Part shown: positions 5,809-8,427 of the stretch, one piece after another
Numbering within the stretch: the first letter of the stretch is position 1
Layout: each line of letters begins with the position of its first letter
Source: Marinosulfonomonas sp.
GTDB lineage: Bacteria; Pseudomonadota; Alphaproteobacteria; Rhodobacterales; Rhodobacteraceae
Assembly (NCBI GenBank): GCA_019090885.1
Contig: JAHRVC010000027.1
Location: forward strand, 1 to 32,056
Reading direction: 5' to 3'
Length of the DNA stretch: 32,056 bases
Notes under the pieces: generated by a model
Told to the model about the DNA's origin: nothing
The model's database searches: none
The model's input: only the letters and a program-made list of their open reading frames with translations
Translations under genes and position numbers: made by a program

Positions 5809-6173
5809 GGTTTTCGTTTTGCTTTTTTAGCGCGCTTTTGAGCAGCGGCTTTCAGGGCGGGCACCATCGAAAGCTGCGCCCAGTGCATGGCCTCGTCGCT
5901 GTCTTCCAAGGCGGCATCCGGCAGGGCCATCAACCCGTTGATCTGGCGCGGGCCGGTTTTGGTGTCATAAGTGAAGGGCTGCGAACCTGCGGCGCTATAG
6001 ATATGCGCCAGTTCTTTGTCAGCCTTCATGAATACGGCATCGCCAAAGATCACCGCAAACATCGCGTCGTCTGAATAAAGCGCTGTGCCGCCAAACAAGC
6101 GCCCGGTGCGGATCGGCGCAAGGTTGGCAAATAAATCCAATGCATGATCCAGAAATCCGGGATCGGCGGGCAT
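5805..6173 (-). CDS. TfoX/Sxy N-terminal domain protein (copy B)
   Basis: 122 aa; LDLFANLAPIRTGRLFGGTALYSDDAMFAVIFGDAVFMKADKE. Overlaps copy A by 4 bp. Confidence 0.83.
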   Translation of the reverse strand: MPADPGFLDHALDLFANLAPIRTGRLFGGTALYSDDAMFAVIFGDAVFMKADKELAHIYSAAGSQPFTYDTKTGPRQINGLMALPDAALEDSDEAMHWAQLSMVPALKAAAQKRAKKAKRKP

Positions 6174-6523
6174 CAGCTTTCAGCGAATTTTATCGACTCA
6201 CCGCAACCGCAGGCATCAACCACATTGGGATTGCGAAACTTGAACCCGCTTTCCAGCAGCGAGGTTTCATAGTGGATTTCGGTGCCAAACAGGAACATCT
6301 GCGCCATCGGTGCGATCATCACCCGCGCGTCGCCCTGTTCAACGACCTCGTCATTTGCGTCAACCTCGGTCACATAGTCCATGGTATATTCCATGCCCGC
6401 GCAGCCACCCTTTTTGATGCCGATGCGCAGCCCCTTATGGCCCTCTGACTGCATCAGCTTGGATATCTGCACAGCCGCAGCATCGGTCATTGTGACAGCT
6501 TGTTTTCCGGGTATGCCGAACAT
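6173..6523 (-). CDS. A-type Fe-S cluster carrier (HesB/IscA/SufA family)
   Basis: MFGIPGKQAVTMTDAAAVQISKLM...GLRIGIKKGGCAGMEYTMDYV...NPNVVDACGCGESIKF; three conserved cysteines. Start at internal ATG 6523. Confidence 0.93.
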   Translation of the reverse strand: MFGIPGKQAVTMTDAAAVQISKLMQSEGHKGLRIGIKKGGCAGMEYTMDYVTEVDANDEVVEQGDARVMIAPMAQMFLFGTEIHYETSLLESGFKFRNPNVVDACGCGESIKFAES

Positions 6524-6545: not shown

Positions 6546-6562
6546 ACCCCTAACTTAGGGGT
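6546..6562. promoter_or_regulatory. Palindrome ACCCCTAA-C-TTAGGGGT overlapping the DUF3307 stop, upstream of the IscA-like start
   Basis: Perfect 8-bp arms with a 1-nt centre, 22 nt upstream of the ATG at 6523. Confidence 0.45.
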
Positions 6563-7292
6563 GGTTGGTGCGTATCTCAAGCACCTGTTCAAGGTCCGGT
6601 AGCAAAGACTGCAACCAAAGCACGCTTAGGGCGGCCAGAATGGCCCAGCCAAAGCTCGCCAATGTGCCGATGATGACGTATTCCGAGGCGCGCCTGTCTT
6701 GGTTGACGGCACTAAAGCGCAGTATGGATTTGGCCGCGATAAGAAACCCGATTGAGCCGGGCAGGTCTGCCAGCATCAGCATGTAAATCAGGCCACGTTC
6801 CAGATGGCCAATTGTTCGCCCGCCTTGGGGCAGGCCGGCGTCGCTGTTGGCCTCGGGGGTATGGCGCGCCATCAGGTAGGTGATCGCAAAGGCCCCGGCG
6901 CGGGTCGCAAATAGCAGCCCGCCCAGCAATAACATCGCATGGGGCAGGGCGGTGGGCGCGCTGGCCCAAATGCCGGTCGCCCACAGGTGGGGCGCGCAAT
7001 ATGCGACCGCGCAAAGGCTGGCCAGATGTGCCGCCTGATCGCCAAGGTGGCTGGCCAGCGTGTCCGGCGCCAGATAGATTTTCGCGGTGTCGATCAGCAG
7101 GTGTGCAGCACCCAGTGCCAGAATTTCCGGCGCATCGACGCGCCCGGTTGCGGCCATCGCCAATGCCAGAACAAGGGCGGCGTGTAACAGCAGCACAGCG
7201 GGTTCGCGTTTTCGCCTGACCATCCAAGTTGGCTGAAAGACGTAGTCAGCCAGAATATGGGCAAATGCCAATGCGATAAAGGTTTCAACCAT
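6555..7292 (-). CDS. DUF3307 domain-containing membrane protein
   Basis: 245 aa; MVETFIALAFAHILADYVFQPTWMVRRKREPAVLLLHAALVLALA... N-terminal LAHxLADYxxQ signature followed by several hydrophobic segments. Confidence 0.82.
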   Translation of the reverse strand: MVETFIALAFAHILADYVFQPTWMVRRKREPAVLLLHAALVLALAMAATGRVDAPEILALGAAHLLIDTAKIYLAPDTLASHLGDQAAHLASLCAVAYCAPHLWATGIWASAPTALPHAMLLLGGLLFATRAGAFAITYLMARHTPEANSDAGLPQGGRTIGHLERGLIYMLMLADLPGSIGFLIAAKSILRFSAVNQDRRASEYVIIGTLASFGWAILAALSVLWLQSLLPDLEQVLEIRTNHP

Positions 7293-7309: not shown

Positions 7310-7356
7310 GCAAGCATATGGGCTTGCGTTTCGTGATTGAAAGCAAAATGACTTGC
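7310..7356 (-). promoter_or_regulatory. 47-bp paired-palindrome module upstream of DUF3307
   Basis: Minus strand: GCAAGTCATTTTGCTTTC-AATCACGAAAC-GCAAGCCCATATGCTTGC. Same layout as 8013-8059. Confidence 0.75.
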
Positions 7357-7361
7357 AGCGA

Positions 7362-7964
7362 TTACGGCACCTCTATCATGTCTATCGCATTAGATAGCGC
7401 GCCATATCCCGCCGCTTCCAGCGCTTGATCGATGCCTTGGCGTGTTATGCCAAGCGTGTCGGCCATTGTCTGTCGTGTCGTTTTGCCCGGAACAAGTGCC
7501 AGATGCATGGCCTTTGCCTGCGCGGGTGTCCAGCCTTGCGAGATCTGATCGGCAAGCCTGACCACGGCCCCCATGGTGCCCTGATCGGCAAAGACCATCG
7601 TGGCCGGGGGCTTTAGCCCGTCAAGCGCGCGCCCAGAGGCGACAAAGACCGGCCCGGATGCGGTATTCAGGTTGCCGGTTTGTTGGGCCATGCCTTGTCC
7701 GATTGCGATTGCTATCCGTGTCGACAGCGATTTTCCACCCGCGCGCAAAGCGGCCCGCAAGAATAGGGCTGTGCGCAGGGCAAGGGTCGGGTCGGGCAGA
7801 GCAACTTGCCAGCCATCGCCGCGGTGGCGACTGAATTGCAAATCGGAACCCTGCCAAATTGAAGCGTCGGCGGCGCCATTTTCCAAAGCCGCCATCGCGC
7901 GTTCTAGGTTGGATTGCGACAGGTCGGTTGAGCGCACCAGATCGCCAGTCAAAACAGCTATCAT
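7362..7964 (-). CDS. SatD-family protein (degenerate nucleotidyl-cyclase-like N-terminus, C-terminal HTH)
   Basis: MIAVLTGDLVRSTDLS...FSRHRGDGWQVAL...LSTRIAIAIGQG...TASGPVFVASGRALDGLKPPATMVF...TRQTMADTLGITRQGIDQALEAAGY. Start at internal ATG 7964 with AAAGGA upstream; the ORF extends to 8084. Confidence 0.8.
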   Translation of the reverse strand: MIAVLTGDLVRSTDLSQSNLERAMAALENGAADASIWQGSDLQFSRHRGDGWQVALPDPTLALRTALFLRAALRAGGKSLSTRIAIAIGQGMAQQTGNLNTASGPVFVASGRALDGLKPPATMVFADQGTMGAVVRLADQISQGWTPAQAKAMHLALVPGKTTRQTMADTLGITRQGIDQALEAAGYGALSNAIDMIEVP

Positions 7965-8000
7965 CACCCAAAATTCCTTTCGGGTGCAGAATGGCCGTGA

Positions 8001-8059
8001 TTTTGCGCAAAAGCAAGTCTTTTTGCTTGCTATCAGTAAATGCAAGCTAATTGACTTGC
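8001..8059 (-). promoter_or_regulatory. 47-bp paired-palindrome module (8013-8059) plus abutting 12-bp palindrome TTTTGCGCAAAA (8001-8012) upstream of satD
   Basis: Minus strand: GCAAGTCAATTAGCTTGC-ATTTACTGATA-GCAAGCAAAAAGACTTGC-TTTTGCGCAAAA. Confidence 0.75.
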
Positions 8060-8064
8060 GAACT

Positions 8065-8427
8065 TTACATGAACCCCAGTTCAAGGCGGGCTTCGTCAGA
8101 CATCATCTCCATGCCCCAGGGCGGTTCCCATATTAGAACCACGTCAACCTGTTTCACACCGGGCAGGGGTTCGACCGCGTCGGCGATCCAGCCGGGCATT
8201 TCACCGGCGACCGGACAACCGGGGGCGGTGAGTGACATCAAAATCCGAACTTCATTTTCGTCGGTGATCTCAATCGTGTAGATCAGCCCAAGATCATATA
8301 TATTCACTGGAATTTCAGGGTCATAGACAGACCGGCAGGCCGTCACAACGCTTTCGTAAAGCGCATGATCGGTGCTTGAAGGCTGGATCAGGGGGGTGCC
8401 CTCGATCGGGGTTGGTTCGACTGTCAT
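8065..8427 (-). CDS. SUF system Fe-S cluster assembly protein (DUF59/MIP18 family)
   Basis: MTVEPTPIEGTPLIQPSSTDHALYESVVTACRSVYDPEIPVNIYDLGLIYTIEI...MSLTAPGCPVAGEMPGWI...VVLIWEPPWGMEMMSDEARLELG. Start at internal ATG 8427. Confidence 0.93.
   Translation of the reverse strand: MTVEPTPIEGTPLIQPSSTDHALYESVVTACRSVYDPEIPVNIYDLGLIYTIEITDENEVRILMSLTAPGCPVAGEMPGWIADAVEPLPGVKQVDVVLIWEPPWGMEMMSDEARLELGFM

Follow-up and report, generated by a model that had tools for sequence, protein, structure and literature searches.

Phased palindrome arrays as candidate operators of a cyclase-fold, helix-turn-helix regulator paired with DUF3307

Two matching 47-bp modules, each built of two palindromes, lie in the 32,056-nucleotide stretch of Marinosulfonomonas sp. 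DNA analysed here (the window), one ahead of a gene for a small SatD-like protein and the other ahead of a gene for a DUF3307 membrane protein. We propose, with a probability of about 0.85, that these modules are operators of the adjacent SatD-like protein, a putative one-component regulator that would repress DUF3307 and, in most genomes, its own gene. The operators, their spacing, their link with satD, the covariation of half-site and recognition helix, and a promoter-like geometry were each obtained by direct computation, and the element initially noted at one locus is thereby extended to a family-wide, phased and apparently co-evolving operator.

Two paired modules at the satD-DUF3307 locus

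All features described here are on the minus strand, where the gene for the 200-aa SatD-like regulator (7362..7964), a cyclase-homology domain with a C-terminal helix-turn-helix (HTH) and the proposed binder, is followed by that for the DUF3307 membrane protein (PF11750; 6555..7292), the constant regulated gene of our proposal. Two genes that are not part of this module flank the pair: upstream that for a SufT-like Fe-S assembly protein (8065..8427), which was recognised in this place in 73 of 85 orthologous loci and is the customary neighbour, and downstream that for an IscA/SufA-type Fe-S carrier (6173..6523). The pair was previously annotated only as a hypothetical protein and DUF3307; a literature search turned up no work on DUF3307 or on an operator of this kind, which is weak evidence as most subscription journals were outside its coverage.

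The satD-proximal module (8059-8013) lies between sufT and the SatD-like gene, ending 48 bp before the ATG (7964), and consists of GCAAGTCAATTAGCTTGC (palindrome 1, 8042..8059) and GCAAGCAAAAAGACTTGC (palindrome 2, 8013..8030), whose centre is 29 bp from that of the first. The DUF3307-proximal module (7356-7310) occupies most of the gap between the two genes and consists of GCAAGTCATTTTGCTTTC (palindrome 1, 7339..7356), with a single arm mismatch, and GCAAGCCCATATGCTTGC (palindrome 2, 7310..7327), again 29 bp away. Both have the layout GCAAG-N8-CTTGC-N11-GCAAG-N8-CTTGC and agree at 33 of 47 positions: 19/20 across the 5-bp arms, 9/16 across the N8 cores and 5/11 across the spacer. On recount, the coordinates, sequences and match counts (33/47 overall, 5/11 in the spacer) were as the initial annotation had given them.

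It is the pair that is special. Scanning the window for the paired pattern with up to three mismatches gave 2 matches against 0 in 100 shuffles, and the genome-wide search that the initial annotation had suggested, run at the same threshold on 2.96 Mb (about 92% complete), returned only the two window modules, with 0 matches for a reversed-pattern control. Single 18-mers were unremarkable, with 13 exact matches genome-wide against 4 for the control. Across 397 genomes the GCAAG module, with up to two mismatches, was found in 42, and 38 of these carry satD; the four that lack it (G346, G076, G265 and G389) fall within the reversed-control rate of 6 genomes. A cassette-specific element used twice, as first surmised, is thus borne out by modules that are unique in the genome and whose presence tracks satD. 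In G346 (locus L124, G346:C11:150500-155000), satD and most of DUF3307 are missing between sufT and iscA, where a one-mismatch operator and the apparent last residues of DUF3307 are kept; a deletion of satD-DUF3307 has left a relic operator there.

The DUF3307 protein matches PF11750 with an E value of 1.7e-12 (47.9 bits, cut-off 23), and its structure model matched no solved relative in the PDB. Its near-invariant His and Asp residues (H12, D16, H37, H64, D68, D85 and H89; window 6555-7292) suggest a membrane-bound, metal-dependent enzyme with a fold unlike any solved. Conservation also extends beyond the Pfam domain into a C-terminal stretch (E165 R166, K188 S189, R192, E204 Y205). DUF3307 occurs without satD in some genomes of the family (e.g., G005, G011 and G016), with many shorter frames of about 130-200 aa.

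Operator arrays and promoter geometry across orthologues

About 400 family genomes, mostly one per genus, were searched; about 84 had an orthologue, and 85 non-redundant loci, about one per genus, were read. Upstream of these orthologues, where the initial annotation had called for a check, palindromes 28-30 bp apart are present in nearly all 85 loci: a de novo, sequence-blind search recovered pairs mostly 29 bp apart or at multiples of that distance. Arrays of two to five tandem palindromes precede nearly every SatD-like orthologue in the family, and, measured with the consensus of the respective locus, palindromes were 29 bp apart in 114 cases, 28 bp in 23 and 30 bp in 22. The half-site is genus-dependent. 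GCAAG, the consensus first described, is indeed present and the commonest, but is merely one among several types, which include TCAAG, GAAAG, GGAAG, GCAGG, GCAACC/GCATCC, ACAGG, ACAACC and ACAGCC.

These data bear on whether the pairs could be chance occurrences or a non-functional property of the sufT locus. Single 18-mers do occur near chance frequency, but paired matches were absent from both the shuffles and the reversed control, and the phasing is conserved despite diverged sequence in most of the 85 loci, including those away from sufT. Contradicted by this phasing and by the covariation described below, such a reading was rejected as scarcely credible.

Three arrangements were distinguished. 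In 52 loci the genes overlap or lie close together and a pair is found only upstream of satD; in 18, the window among them by type, the genes are apart and pairs precede both; and in 7 the pair is found only between satD and DUF3307. Of the remainder, 4 loci had an incomplete array or no array when the strict rule was applied, and 2 had an upstream pair only. Because DUF3307 is covered in all three arrangements, we take it to be the constant target. In a dozen loci no sufT was recognised as the upstream neighbour, in several of them because satD is elsewhere, and the pairs are nevertheless present, which indicates that the element goes with satD whatever the locus. Inverted repeats in the gene's own control region are conserved in orthologues, the pattern of an autoregulated HTH regulator. 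Two SatD-like genes (L109 and L110; G347:C330 and G166:C480) apparently carry a frameshift ahead of the HTH, and the palindrome arrays upstream of them are intact; this could reflect decay or assembly error.

In 30 loci two units stand 29 bp apart and the ATG begins 1-4 bp past the last unit. At idx 14-17 of the first unit these loci have TTGC (T 100%, T 100%, G 80%, C 87%), and 17 bp after this -35 hexamer, inside the last unit, they have TATRRC (T 93%, A 93%, T 70%), with the A of the ATG 7 bp beyond. The pattern reads as a leaderless promoter whose putative -35 and -10 both lie inside the operator, with +1 at the ATG, and palindrome spacings of 28 or 30 bp would correspond to promoter spacers of 16 or 18 bp. 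T-tracts and A-tracts flank the palindromes. By analogy with these orthologues, a putative DUF3307 promoter can be read in the window module (7313..7342), with a weak -35 TTTCAA (7342-7337), an 18-bp spacer and a -10 TATGCT (7318-7313). A consensus promoter scan of the window found none, this candidate included, and the satD copy of the module has no convincing -10, so that promoter occlusion in the window leans on the orthologues.

Extra palindromes further upstream in many loci (3-5 units), and embedded promoters with non-consensus -35 and -10 hexamers of the sort frequent in activator-dependent promoters, would suit a SatD-like protein that uses the same operator as an activator, its dimers recruiting RNA polymerase from the array. 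The last palindrome, however, covers the -10 and an arm of the preceding one forms the -35, a position typical of repressors, and we regard activation as unlikely. The geometry also weighs against palindromes that work in RNA, as paired 5'-leader hairpins forming an attenuator or bound by a protein. GCAAG-N8-CTTGC can form a hairpin of 5-7 bp, and about 20 loci have a start codon far enough downstream for the element to be transcribed; in the 30 loci described above, however, the element would lie upstream of +1. The scan of the window found no terminator-like site there, and the covariation is with the HTH recognition helix. A role in RNA is thus very improbable.

The SatD-like protein and its half-sites

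The AlphaFold2 model of the SatD-like protein is confident (pLDDT 95.8). Residues about 1-140 match class III adenylyl cyclases (Foldseek 4wpa, E 6e-5; profile match to Mycobacterium avium Ma1120, E 0.001), and the C-terminal ~50 residues form the HTH, with its recognition helix at 175-184. Of 82 sequences, 81 retain both metal-binding Asp residues (D8 and D50), whereas a hand alignment, not based on structure, shows a residue other than Asn at the transition-state Asn position (108) and has Arg112 in 51/82. Since the protein is small, ends in an HTH and, by that alignment, keeps the Asn and Arg positions poorly, its N-terminal domain is probably a nucleotide-binding sensor and less likely a normal cyclase.

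The name satD used in the initial annotation has no profile backing. The Pfam SatD family (PF16264) is of similar size by profile length (211 positions), but it matched neither the window protein nor the genome at E<=1 and is absent among the families listed for 27 orthologues; "SatD-like" is therefore a label of convenience. No Pfam, NCBIfam or PADLOC model matched the protein or gave it a useful name, a single-protein search of the genome contigs found no relative, a class-wide search at E<=1e-8 found no orthologue outside the family, and a search of phages likewise gave none.

We scored each variable half-site position against about 200 protein columns by mutual information. The top columns were p1-175, p2-176, p4-177 and p5-180, all in the recognition helix. 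Residue 175 pairs with p1 as R with G (58 loci), Q with A (9) and P, T, K or A with T (11), the exceptions being one R with T (L089), one K with A and one P with A; K180 goes with C at p5 in 14/14 loci. In a null model in which the DNA letter was simulated on a tree from residues 1-155 only, any column reached the observed value in 0/400 simulations for p1, 10/400 for p2, 0/400 for p4 and 10/400 for p5. Independent changes on the tree are few: p1 has 6-7, 3 of them on well-supported branches and none discordant, and the independent pairs for p2 and p5 are likewise few, with none discordant. For 13 loci the half-sites had been assigned manually; when these were left out, p1, p2 and p5 kept their top column and p4-177 lost first rank.

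A tighter alignment yielded 43 further named loci (Roseovarius, Thioclava, Salipiger, Marivita and others) as a held-out set, which tests the DNA side only, as its members were retrieved partly by helix motif. R175 was found with G in 41/43, the two misses resembling register shifts, and S177 with G at p4 in 5/5; RP went with GAAAG or G?AAG, and RS with GTAAG. Together with the excess over the phylogenetic null, this supports the initial suggestion that the C-terminal HTH is the plausible binder, and points, on computational grounds, to the recognition helix of the protein itself as the determinant of operator specificity. Helix and putative docking sites have evidently changed together across some 80 genera, so that residue-to-base assignments can be proposed directly: residue 175 would read the outermost base p1, 176 p2, 177 p4 and 180 p5. 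Such an order along the helix, with 175 outer and 180 inner, is typical of HTH repressors.

These genomes encode many HTH regulators, any of which might bind the modules, and nothing specific favours one of them. Against such a binder, the only paired sites in the genome adjoin satD, and they move with it to other chromosomal positions; moreover, the half-sites vary in step with residues of the SatD helix to a degree that exceeds the tree null. We therefore consider another DNA-binding protein a most improbable candidate.

In the mechanism that we propose, the SatD-like protein, which joins an HTH to a class III cyclase-fold domain, would act as a one-component regulator whose dimer reads each 18-bp palindrome through the recognition helix. 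Dimers on palindromes 28-30 bp apart would probably act together. With one arm serving as the -35 and the next palindrome containing the -10, both promoter elements would lie inside the operator, and occupancy should exclude RNA polymerase and so repress. Most likely DUF3307 would always be under repression, and the gene of the regulator itself in most genomes, with release by a signal that may be a nucleotide binding to the cyclase-fold domain. Binding, repression, cooperativity and ligand are all inferred.

Distant relatives and known systems

Relatives at about 30% identity occur on plasmids, and DUF3307 follows them wherever annotated; carriers of the pair are Sphingomonas insulae, Segatella copri, two Salinivibrio, Vibrio lentus, Pseudomonas fragi, Enterobacter kobei and E. 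coli (pEC34A). Phased palindromes recur in Vibrio lentus (TTAGCC every 28 bp), Pseudoalteromonas (GTAACC, 28 bp) and Sphingomonas (TCAACC, 28 bp), and E. kobei has CAACC-N5-GGTTG twice, 29 bp apart; no clear palindrome pair was found at the P. fragi and E. coli loci. With the helix read by eye, K180 with C at p5 holds in the distant relatives that have phased palindromes. Sphingomonas and probably E. kobei combine R175 with T, which does not fit the code; with L089, and with p1=A beside P or K, this means that the code has exceptions.

On the Sphingomonas insulae plasmid (L119; NZ_CP048421.1, 2250-5621), the pair adjoins genes for a Pycsar effector, an E2-associated protein and an adenylate/guanylate cyclase; its other flank carries TIR and HTH/ImmA genes, and the region looks like a defence island. 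The P. fragi (pPFL), E. kobei and E. coli (pEC34A) pairs (L189, L190 and L191) are also on plasmids, and on 3.77-kb mobilizable plasmids of E. coli and Klebsiella the pair is a large share of the plasmid.

Among known systems, repressors of the lambda CI/Cro type are likewise dimeric HTH proteins that autoregulate from tandem palindromes over the -35 and -10, and the N-terminal end of their recognition helix reads the outer bases, as we propose for the SatD-like protein. Unlike these, the SatD-like system has 18-bp palindromes at a 28-30-bp centre spacing, a cyclase-fold domain as presumed sensor, DUF3307 as partner, and half-sites that change between genera together with the helix. Class III cyclases such as Ma1120 share the N-terminal fold and the two metal-binding Asp residues (D8/D50), whereas the SatD-like protein is small, has a C-terminal HTH and, by sequence alignment, does not conserve the Asn position and has Arg112 in 51/82. 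Mycobacterial cyclase-HTH proteins such as Rv0386 also join a cyclase-type domain and an HTH in one polypeptide, but they are large and multidomain, with a LuxR-type HTH, and we know of no such operator array for them. Pycsar systems, beside one of which the Sphingomonas pair lies, resemble the pair in setting a cyclase-fold protein next to a membrane protein; the SatD-like protein, in contrast, has an HTH and incomplete catalytic residues, DUF3307 is not a known Pycsar effector, and PADLOC, which matched neither protein, does not place the pair in Pycsar.

A broader reading, which we put forward tentatively and think doubtful, is that the pair is a widespread mobile two-gene system in which a cyclase-fold nucleotide sensor, bound to a rapidly drifting private operator, would free a membrane effector upon a shift in nucleotides, such as phage attack or other stress might bring; its occurrences span Alpha- and Gammaproteobacteria, Bacteroidota, small mobilizable plasmids and one defence island. 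For the family itself, the analysis gives the gene pair a proposed function, as a DNA-binding autoregulator, a proposed target in DUF3307 and a candidate base-by-residue recognition code. An operator that drifts between genera in step with its presumed protein is a natural experiment in joint specificity change, and the family could prove a source of numerous repressor-operator pairs that are orthogonal to one another. A small repressor with a cyclase fold as its presumed sensor also suggests that the membrane protein DUF3307 is controlled in response to nucleotides.
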